Positions 51,929 to 61,953 of a DNA stretch of 64,000 nt are shown piece after piece. How positions within the stretch are numbered: the stretch's first letter is position 1; every line of letters starts with the position of its first letter. A program made the translations under genes and the position numbers. Below the pieces are notes generated by a model. The model was not told where the DNA came from. It did no database searches and saw nothing but the letters and a program-made list of their open reading frames with translations. The DNA comes from Pseudoalteromonas rubra (GTDB lineage Bacteria > Pseudomonadota > Gammaproteobacteria > Enterobacterales > Alteromonadaceae): assembly GCF_005886805.2 (NCBI RefSeq), contig NZ_CP045430.1:1178001-1242000 (forward strand), read 5' to 3'.

Positions 51929-52891
51929 CTAATTGAAACTTGCGAGCAATTTCTCTAATTGTTCCAGGCGTTTTTCTGTAATCACACGATCGTCAATTTT
52001 TACAGTAATAGCGCCACTTTTAATGTTTTTTTGCACTTTGACATAGTCATTCTCAAGTAACGCGACGTTTCTGGCTTCAGCCTTGGAAAAGGTTGTCAGA
52101 TAGTTGGTAAGTAACACAGCACGCTTTTCATCGCTAACCATTTCTGTTGTGAGTTTATCAGAGTCGTATTCAGCCACTTTCTGTTTAAAGGCTTCGTTAT
52201 GCTCCTGAATCGCCGCAATGAGCTTTTTGGCAGCTTCCCGACCTAAGTGATTTGCTGTTGGATAGAGGCTCACTACATCAACTGGAATTTGCTCATAGGC
52301 TTTTAACGAATCTGCAATGGCTGTGTGAGACAACCCTTCAATCGCTGCAATCTCTCGATATGAACCTTTCTTTCCTTGCCGAATTAGCGCCTGTTTAGTC
52401 TGAGAAAATGCTTTTCCCTGTTCCCACAAACTGGGTGCGATATATTGATCTGAAGAGACAGAAAGCACTTTCGCATCTTCGTCGGTAAAATCCGCTGAAG
52501 TTAAAATTACATAATCAGCACCACCCAATAAGCAGGCTTTTCTGCGTCTGGAGCCCGATAAAACTTCATGCACAGAACCTTTTTCCCAACATAAGGCTGG
52601 ATGCAAATTACGCTTATCAGACTGTATAGCTGGCAAAATATCAGCAACTGAACGCTCATTCAGTAATGTTTGGTCACGACGATTATCACCATACACTTTT
52701 GTGATCTGATCAATCTCATTGTGTTTGATCACTTTACAGATCAGGGTGATCGTCCTGTTTGGATCGCTAGGAGCCGGCATAGTGATCACATCGCCAACTT
52801 TGGCCTGATCTAAAAGATCATCCAGGCTACTTCCTTCAACGGGAGTTGCAAATGGGTCGATGCGTGTGTCGTTTTTACGTTTTCTAGCCAT
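51929..52891 (-). CDS. parB: ParB-type partition protein
   Basis: The 320-residue protein has the ParB/Sulfiredoxin-like CTP-binding region (AILPAIQSDKRNLHPALCW, GSRRRKACLLGG with the Arg-rich box) and a central helix-turn-helix (YREIAAIEGLSHTAIADSL). A C-terminal dimerisation part follows (EKRLEQLEKLLASFN). Its size is that of P1 ParB and F SopB. It binds a centromere (parS/sopC-like) and stimulates ParA. It starts 16 bases after parA. I could not identify its centromere with certainty. Confidence 0.93.
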   Translation of the reverse strand: MARKRKNDTRIDPFATPVEGSSLDDLLDQAKVGDVITMPAPSDPNRTITLICKVIKHNEIDQITKVYGDNRRDQTLLNERSVADILPAIQSDKRNLHPALCWEKGSVHEVLSGSRRRKACLLGGADYVILTSADFTDEDAKVLSVSSDQYIAPSLWEQGKAFSQTKQALIRQGKKGSYREIAAIEGLSHTAIADSLKAYEQIPVDVVSLYPTANHLGREAAKKLIAAIQEHNEAFKQKVAEYDSDKLTTEMVSDEKRAVLLTNYLTTFSKAEARNVALLENDYVKVQKNIKSGAITVKIDDRVITEKRLEQLEKLLASFN

Positions 52892-52907: not shown

Positions 52908-54140
52908 TTACTGATCGAGAGATGACTGAGTTGAAGGCCAATTTGAACGGATCAACATCTCAAGTTCATCGACCACGTCTTTAATATTTTCCTGAGATTT
53001 GATCAGAGACTCACGACTTGCCAATGAATCTGACGTTTTCTGATCGAATATCGTATTGAACGAAGAGGAACTCGCTGTAATCGCTGAGCTATGGTTGATA
53101 GGATAACTCATTACCTGACGGCCAAAGGCACTACGCACATCTTTGACGATGTCACGCTGAGAATGGTTACCTTTAACATAATTGGTTACCAGGAATTGCA
53201 TAAAATCCCAGCCTTCATGTCCAAGCGCAGCAACTGTATGGTAAATCTCACCCAATCGTTTTAGATACTTATTATTTGCATCAAAGTCGACGGCTTCTGG
53301 ATGTACAGGTATCAACATAGCTGTAGACGCCATCAATGCATTGTAGAACATGAAATTAAGAGAAGGAGCAGTATCTATCAGGATAATATCAAATTGCTCT
53401 GAAACTGGCTCTATGACTTTCTCCTTCAATTTATGATAGTGACGAGTCTGAGCATAGCTTGATGATTCTTTTAGTTCAGTGGCGGTCTCATGCTCAAAAT
53501 AAAAATCATCCATGCCTGACGGTAAAACGCGAATATTAGGAATGTGTGTTTCTCTAAATGCATCTGACACCAACTGGTCCCATGTTTCATCTTCATCAAG
53601 TTCAATACAATCTCGCATTAGATCACCTACGGTGATGGGCTCAGGATCTTGTGAAGGAAAAAAGCTTGATGATGATCCTTGGGGATCAAGATCAATGATC
53701 CCAATACGGTATCGCTTGATATTTGTTGTCGCTAAGGCTGCTGCGATATTGACAAGACTGGTTGTTTTACCACAACCACCTTTTAAACTATTGATGACGA
53801 TAACTTGAAGTTTGTCGTCTGATTTTCTGTGATCAGCTTGGATCCCTAAGATTTCAGCCATTGAAAAAATATTAGCCAATGTATAGGCATAATGACCATT
53901 TGCCCCTTTTTGAATTGCTAAATGGTCAAAATCGCCTTGATCATGGCGTCTTTTTAGTGTTCTGTTGTTTACACCAAGTAAGTCTGCTGCTGCTTTTTGC
54001 GTATAAGTGCGAAGTTCTTTATCTTCGCTTTTAAGATGTGCACGATAATGCTGAATTCGGCCTTCAAGGGACTTTTCAGCTACTTCAGCGGTTGCTTTCA
54101 GCAGCCGATAGGTTGAGAGCGCATTGCTATTGATAGACAT
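52908..54140 (-). CDS. parA: ParA-type partition ATPase with N-terminal HTH (type Ia)
   Basis: The 410-residue protein has a helix-turn-helix near residues 50-66 (AADLLGVNNRTLKRRH), then a deviant Walker A (KGGCGKTTSLVNIAAAL), Walker A' IGIIDLDPQGSSS and Walker B FDIILIDTAPSLNFM. The HTH and length place it with P1 ParA and F SopA, which also repress their own operon. It segregates the replicon by ATP-dependent patterning on the nucleoid. AAGGAAA lies 9 bases before the ATG. It is divergent from rep, so partition and replication are controlled from one intergenic region. Confidence 0.95.
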   Translation of the reverse strand: MSINSNALSTYRLLKATAEVAEKSLEGRIQHYRAHLKSEDKELRTYTQKAAADLLGVNNRTLKRRHDQGDFDHLAIQKGANGHYAYTLANIFSMAEILGIQADHRKSDDKLQVIVINSLKGGCGKTTSLVNIAAALATTNIKRYRIGIIDLDPQGSSSSFFPSQDPEPITVGDLMRDCIELDEDETWDQLVSDAFRETHIPNIRVLPSGMDDFYFEHETATELKESSSYAQTRHYHKLKEKVIEPVSEQFDIILIDTAPSLNFMFYNALMASTAMLIPVHPEAVDFDANNKYLKRLGEIYHTVAALGHEGWDFMQFLVTNYVKGNHSQRDIVKDVRSAFGRQVMSYPINHSSAITASSSSFNTIFDQKTSDSLASRESLIKSQENIKDVVDELEMLIRSNWPSTQSSLDQ

Positions 54141-54168
54141 ACGTTATTTCCTTCAAATGATGGTTATT

Positions 54169-54197
54169 ATTATAATGTCCATTACTTTTGCAGTAAA
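54169..54197 (-). promoter_or_regulatory. parAB promoter
   Basis: On the minus strand TTTACT (54192-54197) and TATAAT (54169-54174) are separated by exactly 17 bases. The parA ATG lies about 30 bases downstream. Confidence 0.7.
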
Positions 54198-54399
54198 CAT
54201 AAAAAAACAAAGACATCTATATTGATAGCTTACTTAAAGAATAAATAAATAAGATTAGAATTGGTTAGATCTATAGGTATTAAAGGTTAGAAGGGTTTAA
54301 TACGATGGTATCTATTTGTTTTTATTGAATATATTGGCATTGGAGTGGATCACAATAATACTTGGTTAAGATCAGATCCTTGTGTACTCATAGATCGTG

Positions 54400-54411
54400 T
54401 TTTTACCAACC
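54400..54411 (+). promoter_or_regulatory. Rep-type box in the origin
   Basis: TTTTTACCAACC, preceded by GATCGTG. A second box, ATTTTACTAAGT, lies at 54483-54494 in the same orientation. Both match the boxes at 40.4 kb and in the rep operator. Confidence 0.6.
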
Positions 54412-54452
54412 TTATTTTCAAAACTTCTCATGCTCACAGTTTACACACAGAG

Positions 54453-54461
54453 TTATCCACT
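54453..54461 (+). promoter_or_regulatory. DnaA box
   Basis: TTATCCACT, one base off the best DnaA box. A related TTATACACT lies at 54507. Confidence 0.6.
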
Positions 54462-54600
54462 TTTAATGGTGCGCAGATCTATATTTTACTAAGTAATTTC
54501 ATGAAGTTATACACTTTTGTTAGATCCTTAGCTGATTTTAATAGGTAAGGATCTGATCTCTACTTGGCATAGATCGGATCCTTACTAGCTGGATTGTGTT

Positions 54601-54609
54601 TTATCCACA
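54601..54609 (+). promoter_or_regulatory. DnaA box (perfect)
   Basis: TTATCCACA, identical to the strongest E. coli DnaA site, lies in the middle of the GATC-rich origin region. Confidence 0.75.
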
Positions 54610-54686
54610 ACGACTCAAAGATACGATGATTTTTGGCCGAATTGAACATGAAATCCAGTACGTGTAAGCAGATTTTGAGCAGTAGT

Positions 54687-54695
54687 TGGTATAAT
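54687..54695 (+). promoter_or_regulatory. rep promoter (extended -10)
   Basis: TGGTATAAT is a perfect extended -10 element. The inverted Rep-box operator lies 20 bases downstream, between promoter and gene. Confidence 0.65.
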
Positions 54696-54714
54696 ATGGA
54701 TCCAAAATCATGTC

Positions 54715-54777
54715 TAAGTTAGTAAAAAAATGATCTCATCTTGGTTTTTTTGTCCAGATCACTTTTTTACTAACTTA
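54715..54777. promoter_or_regulatory. Inverted-repeat operator of rep
   Basis: Two 22-base arms (54715-54736 and 54756-54777) are reverse complements at 21 of 22 positions, with a 19-base centre. Each arm contains a full Rep box (TTTTTACTAACT) and a GATC. An inverted pair of iteron-like boxes before a rep gene is the usual operator bound by Rep dimers for self-repression. Confidence 0.8.
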
Positions 54778-54841
54778 AACAATTAACTTTTGATCGTGAA
54801 TGTGTTGTCATTAACCGTCACAAAATTCTGGAAGTAATAAA

Positions 54842-56056
54842 ATGAGCCGCAAGGTAAACATCTCCGTTGATAATTTACCTGATTCCCTTAGAGGTCAGAT
54901 CCATGGTGTTGAAAGTGCAACCGATAACGAGAGTTTAGCGTTGTTTACTGATAACAAAGATGTACGCGTTTCGCTGGAAAGTCCTAATCATGGTTTGCGA
55001 GCTTACTCAAATACTTTCAATCATTACGACCTTTGGGGGCGATTCGTTCGTTCGGGCTATAAAAAGTTGCCTTTAGAAGAAGCACCAAAGAAAACAATTA
55101 TTTCCAGACGTATTTCGGAAAAGGTCGATGGCATACTGTACGATGGTGAATTAAAAATCACTCCAGCGGTTGTGAGTAGTAAAAAGGATGGCGAAGAAGC
55201 TGAGTTTTTAGTTTGGCCATCAGACAGAGAAGAGAAGGTTGAGCGGGCATTAATTCGTCTTGCTTCAAAAGGCAAGATAGTTAAAATCAATTTTAAGTCC
55301 GGTATTCAATATGCGGTAATTTTCTCTATGAATGAGCTGGCTCAAGAGCTAAAAGCTGTTGGTCAATCAATGCCTTATCCACAGATTAAAGAGTCATTGG
55401 AAGCCCTTCAAGGGTCGAAACTTTCGTTCAAATATAGGGCTACGGATACCAAAAGCACAGATATCGATGACTCTTTTTACGAGTCAAATATGAACTTTTT
55501 GTCCTCATTGCATTTTAGTGGTAAGAAAGGTCAGGGTGGAAACGTTAAATGTGTGGCCTGCCTTAATGCTTTTGTTCATAACATGATCGATAATCTAGAA
55601 TACAAGGGTTATTACTTCAATAGCGCGCAAGAGCTTAAGCGAGGCTTATCTCGCTGGATGATGCTACGTTTGTATCACTTGTGGCGATATGCAGCTCCTG
55701 GTAAAACTTACCATTTTCGGCTTTTGTCCATTATGGAAAAGTACGGTTCTATTTACCCAGATGATGAAATAACCGACAATAAACTGAAAGCGTTACGTCG
55801 AGATATGACGACAACAATGAAAGATCTGATCGAAAAAGGCGCTATATCTGAGTACCATATTTCAAATGTAAAAGATGATAAAAGTGGTAAAATCATTGAT
55901 TATGTGTACGAAATGCATCCATCTGCACAGTTCTGTGATGAGATATTAGCACTAAATAAACATAATAAACGCATCGAAATTCAAGGTGGTAAGCGGATCG
56001 TTGAAAATGCGGAAGTTATTGATGAAGATACACTCGAAGAAATAGTGAAAAAGTAG
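54842..56056 (+). CDS. Plasmid-type replication initiator protein (Rep)
   Basis: The 404-residue protein lies between parAB and the repeat array. GGAAG is the ribosome binding site, 7 bases from the ATG. It has no ATPase motifs. The C-terminal part (residues about 270-380: SRWMMLRLYHLWRYA, KLKALRRDMTTTMKDLIEKGAI) resembles the winged-helix domains of iteron-binding initiators, and a similar winged-helix-like region lies near 125-190. Position, operator and iterons support its role as initiator. It should bind the TTTTTACTAACT boxes, as dimers at the operator and as monomers at the origin. The gene is not recognised by a specific symbol. Confidence 0.82.
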   Translation: MSRKVNISVDNLPDSLRGQIHGVESATDNESLALFTDNKDVRVSLESPNHGLRAYSNTFNHYDLWGRFVRSGYKKLPLEEAPKKTIISRRISEKVDGILYDGELKITPAVVSSKKDGEEAEFLVWPSDREEKVERALIRLASKGKIVKINFKSGIQYAVIFSMNELAQELKAVGQSMPYPQIKESLEALQGSKLSFKYRATDTKSTDIDDSFYESNMNFLSSLHFSGKKGQGGNVKCVACLNAFVHNMIDNLEYKGYYFNSAQELKRGLSRWMMLRLYHLWRYAAPGKTYHFRLLSIMEKYGSIYPDDEITDNKLKALRRDMTTTMKDLIEKGAISEYHISNVKDDKSGKIIDYVYEMHPSAQFCDEILALNKHNKRIEIQGGKRIVENAEVIDEDTLEEIVKK

Positions 56057-56107
56057 CCGTTTAATAAAATAAACAATGTTTTTTGGCTTTACTCTTAGAA
56101 CGCTTTA

Positions 56108-56118
56108 TTATGTTAAAT
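56108..56118 (+). other. XerD-type half-site (weak dif candidate)
   Basis: TTATGTTAAAT is identical to the XerD arm of dif sites. The 11-base XerC arm expected 6 bases upstream (ACTCTTAGAAC) is a poor match. The same 11 bases occur inverted at 61711-61721. Confidence 0.2.
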
Positions 56119-56242
56119 AGTCAGGCGTTCTCTAATATTTTACTAATTCCCCTAAAAGATTGCGCATTTTTTCTCTTTGCCTTGTTAAAAACTCTTTTAA
56201 TAATGTAGGTCGAGTTGTGTTTTTAGGAGTTTATTGAGTTTT

Positions 56243-58450
56243 ATGATGTGTTCTTTTTTGTGCGTTGCTTATTCCTTTGGTTGGCCAGGTAAGAATGCTC
56301 CTTACTAATTTGTCTCTTCTCTCGGGCTCAAAAGAACGATGATTTGGTCAGCCTTTTTAAACTGGCGAAATGATTTATGGTGAATATGTGCCATTTAATT
56401 CCTAAATTAATGATGTGTTCTTTTTCTGTGTGTTATTTATCTCATTGGTTGACGGAAAAGGGTTGGCCTGTGTGAGAATGCCCCTTACTCTTTTCACGGG
56501 GTCAAAAGAACAACGATTTGGTATGCTTTTTAAACTAAAGAATTGGTGCATAGTGAGTATCGAATCTGTATTTGTATCTTAATTTAATGATGTGTTCTTT
56601 TTATGTGTTATCTGTTCCTTTGGTTGATGGAATTGGGTTGGCCCGGGTGAAAATGCACCTCACTAGTTTGTCCCTGATCACGGGGTCAAAAGAACGATGA
56701 TTTGGTGAGCCTTTTTAAACTGACGAGATGATGTATGGTGAGTATTGAACCTGTATTCGTGTCTTAATTTAATGATGTGTTCTTTTTCTGTGTATTATCT
56801 ATCTTATTGGTTGAAGGAAAAGGGTTGGCTTGTGTGAGAATGCCCCTTACTAGTTTGTCTTTTTTCACAAGGTTAAAAGAACAACGATTTGGTATGCTTT
56901 TTAAACTAAAGAATTGGTGCATAGTGAGTATCGAATCTGTATTTGTATCTTAATTTAATGATGTGTTCTTATTGATGTTTTGCCTATGCCTTCATTTGAC
57001 GAAAATGGGGTTGGCCCGGGTGAAAATGCGCCTCACTAGTTTGTCCCTGGTCATCGGGTCAAAAGAACGATGATTTGGTGAGCCTTTTTAAACTGACGAG
57101 ATGATGTATGGTGAGTATTGAACCTGTATTCGTGTCTTAATTTAATGATGTGTTCTTTTTCTGTGTATTATCTATCTTATTGGTTGAAGGAAAAGGGTTG
57201 GCTTGTGTGAGAATGCCCCTTACTAGTTTGTCTTTTTTCACAAGGTTAAAAGAACAACGATTTGGTATGCTTTTTAAACTAAAGAATTGGTGCATAGTGA
57301 GTATCGAATCTGTATTTGTATCTTAATTTAATGATGTGTTCTTATTGATGTTTTGCCTATGCCTTCATTTGACGAAAATGGGGTTGGCCCGGGTGAAAAT
57401 GCGCCTCACTAGTTTGTCCCTGGTCATCGGGTCAAAAGAACGATGATTTGGTGAGCCTTTTTAAACTGACGAGATGATGTATGGTGAGTATTGAACTTGT
57501 ATTTGTGTCTTAGTTAAATGATGTGTTCTTTTTATGTGTTATCTGTTCCTTTGGTGATGGAATTGGGTTGGCCCGGGTGAGAATGTGCCTCGCCAGTTTG
57601 TCCCTGGTCACCGGGTCAAAAGAACGATGATTTGGTCAGCCCTTTTAAACTGACGAGATGATGTATGGTGAGTATTGAACTTGTATTTGTGTCTTAATTA
57701 AATGATGTGTTCTTATTGGTGTTTTGCCTATGCCTTCATTTGACGAAAATGGGGTTGGCCCGGGTGAGAATGCGCCTCACTTATTTGTCACTTCTCACGG
57801 GGTCAAAAGAACGATGATTTGGTCAGCTTTTTTAAACTGACGAGATGATGTATGGCGAGTATTGAACTTGTATTTGTGTCTTAATTAAATGATGTGTTCT
57901 TTTTATGTGTTATCTGTTCCTTTGGTTGATGGAACTGGGCTTGCCCGGGTGAGAGTGCGCCTCGCTAGTTTGTCCTTGGTCACCGGGTCAAAAGATTGAT
58001 GATTTGGTCAGCTTTTTTAAACTAAAGAGATGATCAATGATGAATATTGAACACTTACTTCCTTAATAAATGATGTGTTCTTTTATTGTGTGTTATTTAT
58101 CCCTTCGGCTGACGGAAATGGGTTGGCCTGTTGGGTGAGAATGCGCCTCACCAATTTGTCACTTCTCACGGGGTCAAAAGAACGATGATGTGGTCAGCTT
58201 TTTCATCTGACGAGATGGTCTATGATGAATACTGAACATTTACTTCCAAAACAAATGAAGTGTTCTTTTGTTGAGTGTTATTTATCTCTTTGGTTGACGG
58301 AAATGGGTTGGCCCAGGTGGTAATTCTTCTTACTAATTTGTCTTTACTCATGGGACCAAAGGAACATTGATTTGTTAAGCCTTTCAAACTGACGATCTGT
58401 TTTATGATGAGTATCGAATATTCACTTTGTAACTTAATGAAGTGTTCTCG
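56243..58450. repeat. About 13 tandem units of ~185 bp; Ter-like array
   Basis: Units start with ATGATGTGTTCTT at 56243, 56410, 56587, 56772, 56958, 57145, 57331, 57518, 57702, 57889 and 58070. Two decayed starts (ATGAAGTGTTCT) lie at 58255 and 58437. The steps are 167-187 bases. Most units also hold the inverse motif AAAAGAACGATGATTTGGT about 90 bases on, so GTTCTTTT sites alternate in orientation every ~92 bases. Neighbouring units form a ~373-base higher-order repeat (56958, 57331). There is no open frame. The array lies between the rep gene and the Tus-like gene and may be a replication fork barrier or, less likely, the centromere. Confidence 0.88.
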
Positions 58451-59243
58451 GCTCGGCGAGATATTTCCATTTTTGACTCAGTTGCTATCAGGTCTGTGTG
58501 ATTGCTTGGTAGGAAGGGACTGACGTTAGACTGTTTTACTTATTTATGGTGTGTTCCTGTTGGGTGAGATTCATACCACAGTAAGTTTCCGTTGTAAGGA
58601 GACCTGTTGCGCTACATACCAACCAGAGATGGGAGGACAGATCTGTTTTAACTAATATCAATAATATGTTCCTAAAATAAAAGCTCTTGTAACCTTGAAA
58701 TGTCACACGATGATAGGCTTTAGTTTCTTGATGATACTGTTTCTTTAATGCATGTTAGTTGGTACTTACACATGACTTATGCTAATCACTTTTTGATTTT
58801 AAAGCAGAATAGTAATCGAGCTCAGATGAAACTTGATTAATCAAAGCTTGGATATCGTTTCGGTAATAAAGAAAATAGACAAAAATGAACACGCACACCA
58901 TTTATGAAAGCTATTTAAATGTATGTGTGTACTTACTTGTACTTATTGGATGTTTACAATCACTTCCAGCAAAATAGTTTTTGATTTAAAAAAAGAATCC
59001 TGTTTGTGCAAACTAAGTTTAAGTTACTTTCAACTAGAGCTAAAAGATATCCAGTTGTATAGATAAGAGCGAAATCTAACGCAGTTTTCTGAGACTTTTG
59101 GTATGTGGTAAAAACGATAGTTTCTGTTGCGTTAGATTCTAATCAAAAATATATGACTTCCCTCGAGTCCATCAGTGAAAAGTAAATACGGCCGGCACTC
59201 TTAACCGAAGTGATGTTTATCGCATTTAAAGCATAAATTAGAA
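58451..59243. other. Non-coding flank of the array
   Basis: No ORF is supported. Two decayed copies of the array motif (ATGGTGTGTTCCTGT near 58546 and ATAATATGTTCCTAA near 58661) suggest that the array once extended further. The remainder is AT-rich sequence downstream of the Tus-like gene. Confidence 0.5.
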
Positions 59244-60116
59244 TCAACCATTAATCGTTTCTAAATAGATTCTCTCGATCAGGTAATTGTATTCTTTTTT
59301 CCTTGGATCATTGCCATCACGACTGTAATTTTTTAATTCACCAATTTTTGTTTCTTTTTGAGGGTTTAGCAAAATGAAAGGTAACGCACCGCTTACGTGA
59401 TACCTATTTTTTGCGCTAAAACGAACGTTTACTTCCGGGCTCACTCGAGTTGGGCGTCTGATCCTCAACTTTGCAGAGTCAGATAGACTTGAAACTCTAA
59501 CACGTTCTTGCTCTACAATTGACTGCCAATTATTCTGATCAATTGCTCTGGGGTTTGTGTATTGGGAAGACCGTTGAAGTATATCAAGAGCTGCTTTTTT
59601 TGAGAGTGTTTTGGTAGAGTGTTTTGTCATCCAGGTGAAACGTACAGAGTAGGGAACAGCTTGCTCGAAATGTATTTTTCTATATGCTGCTAGAGTAACT
59701 AAACTGGGGACCGCACTGTGCACAGCTTCAAATCTTGCATCATTATTTGTGATTTCAAGAATAAGTTCTTTGAAGGCATCTTTTGCTAAATTTATTTCTA
59801 CCAGTCTATTTCGTATCTCGTTTTTGGGATCATTTACTAAAAGTATCCCTGGATGTCTGGTGAGTACCTTGCCACTTTCTTTTTTGTCAATAAAGAGATC
59901 TTTGTAGGAAGAGATACAATGGCTGAATGCATCCTGACCTGTTAGTTTTTCTACATGAACACTATCTGGCGCAGAGAGTTCATCTTTCTTTTGTACTGGA
60001 GGTAATTTGAAATAGTAAGCTTGAGTTATGTCTGCTTGCTTAATTTCTTCACAAAATAATGAGATTTGCTCAAAAAGGTAATCAAAATGAGAGCGTATGG
60101 AAAGCTTACTTTTCAT
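59244..60116 (-). CDS. tus: Tus-like replication terminus site-binding protein
   Basis: I start at the ATG at 60116 (MKSKLSIRSHFDYLFEQ), because the upstream in-frame ATG (60158) lies before the likely transcription start and adds nothing seen in Tus. The ~290-residue protein follows E. coli Tus along its length as I recall it: FKLPPVQKKDE, GQDAFSHCISSYKDLFI, RHPGILL, VPSLVTLAAYRK (E. coli LPGLITLNAYRT), VRFTWMTKH (LRFGWANKH), SAKLRIRRPTRV (NAKLKIKRPVKV) and IGELKNY (VGELLNY). Tus binds Ter sites and stops forks from one side by locking on to DnaB and a flipped cytosine. It sits about 4.5 kb from the origin, next to the repeat array. Confidence 0.9.
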   Translation of the reverse strand: MKSKLSIRSHFDYLFEQISLFCEEIKQADITQAYYFKLPPVQKKDELSAPDSVHVEKLTGQDAFSHCISSYKDLFIDKKESGKVLTRHPGILLVNDPKNEIRNRLVEINLAKDAFKELILEITNNDARFEAVHSAVPSLVTLAAYRKIHFEQAVPYSVRFTWMTKHSTKTLSKKAALDILQRSSQYTNPRAIDQNNWQSIVEQERVRVSSLSDSAKLRIRRPTRVSPEVNVRFSAKNRYHVSGALPFILLNPQKETKIGELKNYSRDGNDPRKKEYNYLIERIYLETING

Positions 60117-60149
60117 AATCAAGAGCCTAATTGCATAGAACAGATGCGT

Positions 60150-60178
60150 ATTATACACCTTGTTAGTAAAAAAATTAA
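60150..60178 (-). promoter_or_regulatory. tus promoter containing a Rep-type box
   Basis: On the minus strand TATAAT (60150-60155) lies 17 bases from a weak -35 (TTAATT, 60173-60178). The spacer is almost filled by the Rep box TTTTTACTAACA (60161-60172). A 14-base string, GTTAGTAAAAAAAT, is shared exactly with the rep operator arm at 54718. Confidence 0.6.
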
Positions 60179-60253
60179 TGAGCTTAGTTTTTTGGTCGGC
60201 GTTATTGTAGTTTTTACTCGGTGCTTTTATTCAACGTATACATTAAAATTAGT

Positions 60254-60268
60254 ATGATGTGTTCCTTT
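60254..60268 (+). promoter_or_regulatory. Isolated array (Ter-like) motif upstream of tus
   Basis: ATGATGTGTTCCTTT lies about 100 bases upstream of the tus promoter, outside the array, in the same orientation as the unit starts. In E. coli a Ter site lies in the tus promoter and mediates self-repression. Confidence 0.55.
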
Positions 60269-60690
60269 TTATAATAAAGATTTATCTCTACTTAAGCAAC
60301 ATTAATTAATGTTTATCCCACTTTTATGATTACTTTTTATATGTTTTTCAATCAATTATCAAAAATTACGTCTTGGTTGAGGAGAGAGTTACGCTTCATC
60401 TCGAAATCAACAAATAAACCGTAAGGGGTATCTCTATGGCAAATATTAAAGCCCCAGTTTCGGGGACCGGATATATAATACTAGCGATCTAGTGCAGTAT
60501 TTATCCAAATTTTAATAGAACATTTTCTCATGTATAGGTTAAAAGGGTAGTTCATAGTAAAGTTTGAAAATTCAAGGCAGCTCAAATTGTGTTATATCCG
60601 CTTTGTTGATTAATAGCGTTGTTTCCTAAATCATTGAACTCATCTAACCTTGTGTGATCAGATCTCAAAAGCAAACACCGAGACTGAACT
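60269..60690. other. Intergenic region between tus and the IS5 remnant
   Basis: AT-rich. A short frame at 60436-60492 (MANIKAPVSGTG, 18 codons, with AAGGGG before it) looks like a truncated gene start left by the IS5 insertion or decay. Nothing else is supported. Confidence 0.4.
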
Positions 60691-61549
60691 TTGAAAGAAA
60701 AGCGTATCACCTGCTGGCTCGATTACAACAAACCCCTTATCGCCAGAGGTAACATCCAACTTTGGTTTTCCCAGGATGCAATTGTGCAGTGGAACAACAC
60801 GCAACATCACGGCGGTAAAGGGCGATTTATTCATTTCTCTGAGCTGGCGATTGAGACCTGCCTGACTTTGCGCGCTGTATTTCGCTTGTCTCTTCTCTGA
60901 TATCAATGATGAAACTTGGTTTGTAAACGCCAACTTATAGTTGTTTTTGCAAGCGAAGTGCTGAGCTGGCAGTTCGTTACAGACCGAGCTCTAGTGCATC
61001 CGCGGGTAATAGCACAGGCTTGAAGGTGTACGGAAATGGTGAGTGGCATGCAAGAAAACATGGTGCGAATAAACGCCGAACCTAGCGAAAGTTACATCTG
61101 GCTTTTGATGAAAATATGCGCCAAATCGTGGGTGCTGAGTTGTCTACAATCTCCGTATGTGATCCAGAGGTTCTGGGTGACTTGCTCAGATCAGTTCGGT
61201 AAAAGCGGATGGCGCTTATGATACCCGAGGCTGTTATGCCGAAATGGCAGCCAAAATGGCCGACGCGGTGATCCCACCAAGGCGCAATGCTCAGTTTTGG
61301 GAGGATGGGCATGCTCGAAACAGCGCGGTCCTTTTAATAAAGCACATAGGTAGCAGTGTGTGGAAAAAGTGTGTGAACTCCCATCAATGCTCACTGTCGG
61401 AAACAGCAATGTATCGTTGTAAACAGCTAATGGGTGACAAGCTGGTTAGTCGTGGATTCAATAAGCAGCACATTGAAGCGATTATCAAAGTGAAAGTGCT
61501 CAATAGAATGACTGGGCTAGGTATGCCTGAATATCAGGGAAACAGCTGA
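60691..61549 (+). pseudogene. Decayed IS5-family transposase
   Basis: Three pieces of one transposase are readable. 60691-60900 encodes the N-terminus (WLDYNKPLIARGNIQLWFSQ, HHGGKGRFIHFSELAIE). About 61010-61190 encodes STGLKVYGNGEWHARKHGAN with an in-frame TAG at 61083-61085 where a Trp codon would be expected. About 61210-61549 encodes DGAYDTRGCYAEM, VIPPRRNAQFWEDG, then SETAMYRCKQLMGDKL and GMPEY. The catalytic Asp of GAYD and the C-terminal Glu region remain, but a central segment is missing and at least one frameshift is present near 61200. The element is inactive. Confidence 0.85.
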
Positions 61550-61953
61550 AATCGCAGTGTTGCCTAAGCTATTTGGATTTGATCAACAAGGCTCTGCTTA
61601 ATTGAAATTATCAATATGTTCATCGATTGCTAAAGCTTTTAGAAACTATCATATGGTACAGGCATTATCTGATTTGCCTAGTTAGGGTGAGCCAGGTAAA
61701 AGCAATGCAAATTTAACATAATTCATATGTAAGATAACACAGCTTTAATTAGAACTACCAGAGACAAAACGTTAGCTCTTTGATAGCTTTTTAAATTTAA
61801 AAGATAGTTGTGAAGTAATTAGATTCGGTTAAAGTGTATGATGTGTTCTTTGTTTTTTGAATTATCCTTTAAATTCTTCGAAAGATCCTTGAAGCCTCAG
61901 CGTCTATAAGGTACCTTGCCTTTGAGGTAACTAATGAGGAATGAGGAAAATAT
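61550..61953. other. Intergenic region before the DAHP synthase gene
   Basis: It contains one more array motif at 61838 (ATGATGTGTTCTTTG), 116 bases before the DAHP synthase ATG. It also holds an inverted XerD-type half-site (ATTTAACATAA at 61711-61721). There is no ORF. Confidence 0.5.
61838..61852 (+). promoter_or_regulatory. Isolated array (Ter-like) motif
   Basis: ATGATGTGTTCTTTG, identical over 14 bases to the unit starts of the array 3.4 kb away and in the same orientation. It marks the right edge of the motif's distribution in this window. Confidence 0.5.

Follow-up and report, generated by a model that had tools for sequence, protein, structure and literature searches.

What stops the second replication fork on a chromid that is copied in one direction, and at which sites does the Tus protein encoded beside its origin act? 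The question is raised by a 64,000-bp stretch of Pseudoalteromonas rubra DNA (hereafter, the window), which covers bases 1,178,001 to 1,242,000 of the chromid C2 (1,348,119 bases) in a 5.94-Mb genome of two contigs, the other being the main chromosome C1 (4,595,233 bases). The window carries the probable chromid origin ori2, followed by the initiator gene rep, a tandem array of short motifs, and a gene for a homologue of Tus. A preliminary description of this region had placed the fork barrier in the array. Our analysis points instead to a 13-letter word, found beside the chromid tus genes and in pairs at most main-chromosome end-points. Judged from its sequence and distribution, GTATGATGTGTTC is the likely Ter site of the chromid-encoded Tus, and we consider it quite probable that Tus bound at this word stops the second fork near the chromid origin and also holds the forks within the terminus of the main chromosome.

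The Tus homologue of the chromid

59244..60158, minus strand: tus homologue; likely start at the ATG at 60116 (290 residues), with a GTG start possible at 60158

According to the preliminary description, the 290-residue product follows Tus, and a profile search and a structure prediction were proposed as checks; both bear the assignment out. The protein matches the Pfam family Ter (PF05472) with an E-value of 1.4e-74 over residues 21 to 299 (251.3 bits, with a cut-off of 22), and E. coli Tus (1ecr) matches it at 3.6e-28. Its predicted model (mean predicted local distance difference test [pLDDT] score, 82; predicted template modeling [pTM] score, 0.73) has the Tus fold: four E. coli Tus-DNA entries in the PDB match it at 3e-25 to 8.5e-24 with template modeling scores of about 0.7, and nothing else in the PDB was returned at E ≤ 0.001. 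The cut-offs of the NCBIfam equivalog models are missed (120.1 of 178.3 bits for TIGR02648 and 240.8 of 323 bits for NF002810); by these scores, the protein is a Tus homologue that lies outside the bounds of both models.

Six residues (R139, F140, H144, P148, K175, and R232 in the E. coli numbering) are invariant in 19 Pseudoalteromonas Tus sequences, and A173, Q250, V234, and K229 are substituted in all 19, as is T136 (N in 16, K in 3). Several of the substituted residues presumably contact the right half of Ter, and their replacement would be consistent with the different right half of the word described below. Among the residues that we take to form the C(6) pocket of E. coli Tus (I79, F140, H144, G149, and L150), F140 and H144 are kept in 19/19 sequences, L150 in 17 (otherwise V), G149 in 4, and I79 in 3.

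The chromid gene is the sole match to PF05472 in the genome of the window. Tus is present in 107 of 108 Pseudoalteromonas genomes and in 3 of 57 genomes from other genera of the family. The closest named tus loci are those of P. rubra S2676 and S2599, Pseudoalteromonas sp. OOF1S-7, and Pseudoalteromonas sp. XMcav2-N, with 88 to 89% identity of Tus.

Second, divergent Tus copies are found on likely plasmids of several Pseudoalteromonas (G005:C3, G007:C3, G013:C3, G037:C3, and other small contigs), and 2669 records of the plasmid collection, mostly from Klebsiella, encode a Tus relative. A tus locus with Ter sites is located on a 730-kb contig of P. rhizosphaerae RA15 (L231); this species is counted among those without a chromid (PMC12053903).

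A candidate Ter word and its distribution

In the window, ATGATGTGTTC occurs 13 times, always on the plus strand; the mean in shuffled sequences is 0.07, and none of 100 shuffles reached 13. Eleven of these copies lie in the array and two are solitary (60254 and 61838). The solitary copies are preceded by GT, which the array copies are not, and across the relatives the solitary copies read GT-ATGATGTGTTC. The whole genome contains 16 exact copies of ATGATGTGTTC, two on C1 and 14 on the chromid, the latter all on the plus strand and within 1,234,243 to 1,248,555. Among Pseudoalteromonas genomes of at most three contigs, GTAWGATGTGTTC is found in 31 of 31, with 158 matches (the reversed word gives 1 match); it occurs in 2 of the 57 genomes from the other genera of the family, once in each.

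E. coli TerB, as read from strain K-12 MG1655, is AATAAGTATGTTGTAACTAAAGT. Its left half, AGTATG.TGT, which includes G6 (C(6) on the other strand), is common to TerB and the Pseudoalteromonas word, whereas the right half is not (GTTC here, AACTAA in E. coli). With the E. coli Ter 17-mer, the best matches in the window have 5 mismatches and none of them falls at the sites, where the TTGTAAC right half is missing. Searches with the E. coli consensus thus fail because the right part of the Pseudoalteromonas site differs from that of TerB.

We read 72 loci with a Pseudoalteromonas-type tus, 7 of the initial 79 (Enterobacteriaceae) being left out. Of the 224 sites that precede tus in the named loci, 221 have G6 together with the ATG core; in the 41 sites from main chromosomes and the G044 chromid, G6 is present by construction of the search. 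By title, none of the open-licence PMC papers that contain the 11-letter word is on Tus or Pseudoalteromonas; in one of them, on a plasmid replicon (PMC9455977), it occurs in a primer.

A predicted fork trap on the main chromosome

A pair of sites, minus on the left and plus on the right, is found on 24 of the 31 main chromosomes, exact in 23 of them and with a one-letter variant in genome G003. The sites of a pair are 22.8 to 143.8 kb apart, and G037 has a second plus site. In 24/24 cases the dif site lies inside the pair (17 identified by a whole-genome pattern search and 7 by looking only inside the pair). Calculated by interval length for 12 of these main chromosomes and the G044 chromid, the chance that every one of them would have its dif between the two sites is about 10^-22. 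Over 20 kb on each side of the pair, GC skew is positive to the left and negative to the right in all 19 main chromosomes fetched for this test (the 24 paired ones less G003, G082, G095, G097, and G107), and the cumulative GC skew has its maximum inside the pair in 7/7 fully covered main chromosomes. The C1 pair of the window's genome is located at 2,261,470 (minus) and 2,284,279 (plus), with a dif-like site at 2,268,672 (genus form, searched inside the pair); the E. coli dif pattern has no match in the window and none, with 3 mismatches, on C1.

Opposed sites thus flank dif and the terminus with their permissive ends outward, which is the layout of a fork trap. By analogy with E. coli, we infer that a fork arriving at the AGTATG end would be blocked. 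Such a “let in, not out” polarity is supported by the layout, since the opposite polarity would keep forks out of the terminus. The chromid tus would then serve the main-chromosome trap in trans, and to keep its terminus bounded the main chromosome is predicted to depend on a gene carried by the second chromosome.

Genome G003 (one contig, 3.6 Mb) is the only one of the 108 genus genomes without Tus, yet it has a Ter pair around dif. Its chromid has either been lost recently or been left out of the assembly.

Sites beside tus on the chromid

60252..60264, plus strand: solitary Ter site with G6, AGTATGATGTGTTCC, matching GTATGATGTGTTC, 136 bp upstream of the tus ATG
61836..61848, plus strand: second solitary Ter site with G6, GTGTATGATGTGTTC, identified by word match
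C2:1248543-1248555, plus strand, outside the window: third solitary Ter site, identified by word match, 8.7 kb beyond the second

Counted from the start of tus, these three plus sites lie 136 bp, 1.7 kb, and 10.4 kb away. Their orientation and G6 make the sites at 60252 and 61836, with the third one 8.7 kb on, the likely barrier of this chromid. The preliminary description, whose range ended at 60268, took in the first solitary site and missed the second.

A core is present within 1.5 kb upstream of tus in 70 of the 72 loci. The two loci without a core near tus, as well as G044 and G099, are all of a divergent Tus type, and the divergent-Tus loci of G044, G099, G096, and G062 have no site near tus. 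Among the 65 non-array loci with sites, 64 carry one no more than 100 bp from where tus starts, and in 42 of these it is co-oriented with tus, as in E. coli. Many species have a minus site 2 to 22 bp from the tus start that points the same way as tus, as TerB does in E. coli; with a plus site about 100 bp further, it makes up a trap of about 100 bp. The P. rubra group has no minus site beside tus, and the nearest Ter of the window, 136 bp upstream, is oriented opposite to E. coli TerB.

All unidirectional-type chromids examined have lock-competent solitary sites beyond tus. The chromid of G044 (1.62 Mb) has a pair at 825,066 (minus) and 926,045 (plus), centered at 876 kb, about opposite tus and ori2; dif2 lies inside this pair and GC skew changes sign across it. 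Likewise, the G099 chromid (1.60 Mb) has a minus site at 737,392 and a variant plus site at 849,851, centered at 794 kb and about opposite tus and ori2. Pairs opposite the origin are the layout expected of chromids copied both ways. Sites beside the origin and sites opposite it would form a natural series for the step from a one-way plasmid to a two-way chromosome.

The tandem array

56243..58556, plus strand: tandem array of 14 Ter-like cores without G6, in units of about 186 bp, with the GTGTTC cores all on the plus strand

The repeats noted in the preliminary description are confirmed as an array of like-oriented Ter-like cores, of which 11 are exact copies of ATGATGTGTTC, two read ATGAAGTGTTC, and one reads ATGGTGTGTTC. 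G6 is found in none of the 14 GTGTTC cores. Such arrays are seen only in the P. rubra group, in nine loci that are less than 96% alike in their long flanks (the window, L045, L058, L066, and L179 to L183). These loci have 8 to 16 exact cores each between rep and tus, 109 in total and all in one orientation, and G6 is absent from 109/109 of them, compared with its presence in nearly all sites upstream of tus. Apart from the core, no word of 6 to 8 letters reaches five copies in each of the four arrays compared.

The E. coli Tus-Ter lock needs C(6); the half-life of Tus-TerB is 315 s when non-locked versus 4367 s when locked, and sites unable to lock did not arrest forks (PMC8707476). Given that the core is kept and the G pairing with the flipped C(6) is missing, the array is likely to hold Tus without locking it. 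We rejected it as a conventional Ter array because G6 is missing. In none of five named loci of the array group is a Ter found less than 100 bp from tus; the nearest one is 118 to 133 bp from the start of the gene in these loci and 119 to 136 bp from it in the window's genome and three relatives. Because the array group is without the promoter-proximal Ter of other species, we favor the array as a reservoir over a hard barrier: it would store Tus, bound without locking, and buffer its level, setting the amount of free Tus and so the expression of tus. The arrays offer natural Tus sites that are predicted to bind without the C(6) lock, which would be useful for separating binding from arrest.

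Direction of chromid replication

54141..54841, no strand: probable ori2, a GATC-rich intergenic region with 15 GATC, one DnaA-like box, and inverted repeats
54842..56056, plus strand: chromid initiator gene rep (Pseudoalteromonas RepA type), assigned by identity to a P. donghaensis chromid protein

A probable origin and a rep gene are observed, as in the preliminary description. At E ≤ 1, neither Pfam nor NCBIfam returns a match for the rep product, which is 91% identical to a 404-residue protein of the P. donghaensis chromid whose gene is flanked by tus and the ParA-like gene; initiator genes of this class were functionally tested in P. tunicata and P. spongiae (Xie 2021, PMC7858055). The cumulative GC skew turns at about 53 to 54 kb of the window, at the probable ori2. 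In 21 of 23 20-kb samples from the chromid, GC skew lies within −0.038 to −0.090; in the other two, which surround the origin, it is +0.005 and −0.002. This pattern indicates leftward copying of nearly the whole chromid circle and agrees with the earlier view of a one-way chromid.

To allow for gene strand, we used the skew at third codon positions, which is +0.110 in rep, +0.191 in tus, and about −0.09 to −0.11 in genes elsewhere, on both strands. At 5 to 10 kb beyond tus, 32 of the 33 fetched chromids that carry Ter next to tus show a negative value, and the 4 that do not carry it there all show a positive one; in this comparison the classes rest on where Ter stands rather than on replication measurements, and the genes may differ. 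The skew values fit two forks of which the rightward one is stopped near tus. We propose that both forks start at ori2 and that the leftward one would copy nearly the whole circle. The rightward one would likely halt at one of the plus sites (60252, 61836, or the one 8.7 kb on), so that the two forks would meet there, before the leftward one reaches the origin and no more than about 20 kb from dif2.

Besides the way in which the skew classes were set, several observations weigh against this reading. Third-position skew of rep is positive in 26 of 32 chromids, but that of tus is mixed (15 positive, 16 negative), as is the signal at 10 to 29 kb, and it is weak to the left of ori2. It is only in the array group that the turning point of raw GC skew falls at the outermost Ter (to within about 1.7 kb, 4/4). 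Ten haloplanktis-type chromids turn at 6.4 to 9.8 kb, whereas their exact sites end at 0.2 to 1.2 kb, and 7 other chromids turn at 20 to 23 kb, with exact sites ending at 7.8 to 11.9 kb; no one-mismatch sites are found at those turning points. On the chromid of the window, raw skew turns at 1,249 kb, where gene orientation changes as well. As for the Ter assignment, no exact site is present on the main chromosomes of G044, G060, and G099 (that of G044 has a single one-mismatch word, far from dif), four other main chromosomes are one-sided (G046, G085, G100, and G102), and conservation of the E. coli pocket does not extend to I79 and G149. In the arrays, the absence of G6 is certain, but its active avoidance is only moderately supported because G is scarce in the array flanks (6.5%); by that frequency the chance of such an absence is 0.1%, the copies not being independent. 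The raw turning point was rejected as a map of fork stops, as it matched the outermost Ter in the array group alone and is confounded by gene orientation.

Alternative explanations

Could the array itself be the barrier, its 14 weak, non-locking Tus sites together stopping the rightward fork about 2 to 4 kb from ori2? Given an E. coli-like polarity, all its cores are oriented to block rightward forks, and both position and orientation are kept in 9/9 P. rubra-group loci despite differing unit sequences. However, the cores are uniformly without G6, the kind of site that did not arrest forks in E. coli; species outside the P. rubra group manage without an array; and tus, which lies beyond it, still has the positive third-position skew expected after rightward copying. 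We regard this explanation as quite improbable and the array as probably the wrong element for the barrier role given to it earlier. It is also rather unlikely that ori2 fires one fork only, as in R1-type plasmids, with the Ter sites stopping that fork after a full circle or guarding the origin. Theta plasmids are often copied one way, Xie 2021 (PMC7858055) leaves one or two forks undecided, and the minus site beside tus in many chromids would stop a leftward fork at the end of the round. The window group, however, has no such minus site, and its plus sites would let an arriving leftward fork through. The prevailing positive skew of rep looks as if this gene were copied rightward, and in related chromids that have no Ter near tus, Ter stands opposite the origin and skew beyond tus is positive, as though an origin of the same kind fired both ways. 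Two-way copying was measured in P. spongiae (Xie 2021, PMC7858055).

It is scarcely credible that the word is recognized by a different protein of the terminus or of segregation, related to FtsK, MatP, or Xer, and stands near tus by coincidence. On main chromosomes the word does lie on either side of dif, and its cluster on the chromid is near dif2; yet AGTATG.TGT is common with E. coli TerB, the word lies no more than 100 bp upstream of tus in nearly all non-array loci with sites, nearly all its matches are confined to a few terminus or tus sites instead of being spread over the replicons, and it is nearly absent from those genera of the family that do not have this Tus. Arrest at the solitary sites by the chromid Tus, which would bind them, is therefore the explanation that we prefer. 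In a broader form, to which we give about even chances, a plasmid-derived second chromosome terminates both replicons: a two-way ori2 is made one-way, a two-site trap is closed in trans, and in the P. rubra group the lock-less array, as a store of Tus, replaces promoter autoregulation. With a genus-wide list of concrete sites, the question of one or two forks at ori2 becomes directly testable.

Relation to known systems

The preliminary description considered the design non-standard, but tus beside ori2 and one-way replication are already described by Galli 2019 (PMC6549158) and Xie 2021 (PMC7858055). The former reports tus beside ori2 in all Pseudoalteromonadaceae examined. The latter established one-way chromids by deep sequencing, did not find ter, its search with the E. 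coli consensus having failed, and raised blockage of the second fork at ter2 as one of two options. A single slope was again seen for the TAC125 chromid in 2026 (PMC13342612), a Ter in the tus promoter has been speculated upon (PMC8347550), and a published diagram draws ter with a question mark (PMC10331603). These chromids have the same cluster (parAB, repA, tus, and helicase) as the window; as far as the available text of both 2019 and 2021 papers goes, Ter sites are not identified, none are reported on the main chromosome, and the array is not described. We found no report of the sites, of a Pseudoalteromonas main-chromosome Tus trap, or of the array in our searches of open-licence PMC papers. 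What is new here is the identity of the sites, the trap pair of the main chromosome, and the lock-less array.

The protein family, the left half of the site with G6, the opposed pair around dif, and a Ter upstream of tus are all as in E. coli Tus-Ter. Unlike in E. coli, the second replicon carries tus in Pseudoalteromonas, whose action on the main chromosome would be in trans, there is an extra cluster beside the chromid origin, and one group has a lock-less array. R1-type plasmids (PMC10331603) likewise combine an origin-proximal Ter with one-way replication, but the chromid has its own tus, exceeds 1 Mb, and shares its sites with the main chromosome. The Type I fork traps of Edwardsiella and Dickeya (PMC8707476; PMC10331603) are similarly narrow, with few sites and one of them upstream of tus; in contrast, those hosts have a single chromosome and no origin-proximal set.

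Other features of the locus

51929..52891, minus strand: ParB-like partition protein (PRK13698, 9.2e-29, under the model's cut-off)
52908..54140, minus strand: ParA-like partition ATPase (AAA_31, 1e-26; partition_RepA, 1.8e-63, under the cut-off of the partition_RepA model)

With these genes, the order helicase, parB, parA, ori2, rep, tus is that of the Pseudoalteromonas chromid cluster of Xie 2021 (PMC7858055). A fragment of a DDE transposase (PF13737, 7.5e-12) is found at 60691 to 60900 on the plus strand, to the right of the first solitary Ter; since only short open pieces follow 60900, it looks like an insertion-sequence remnant between the two Ter sites. Among the listed DNA matches longer than 1.5 kb, those to the P. 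rubra group break near the end of rep and restart at the second solitary Ter, which suggests that the cassette 56162 to 61836 diverges faster than its flanks.

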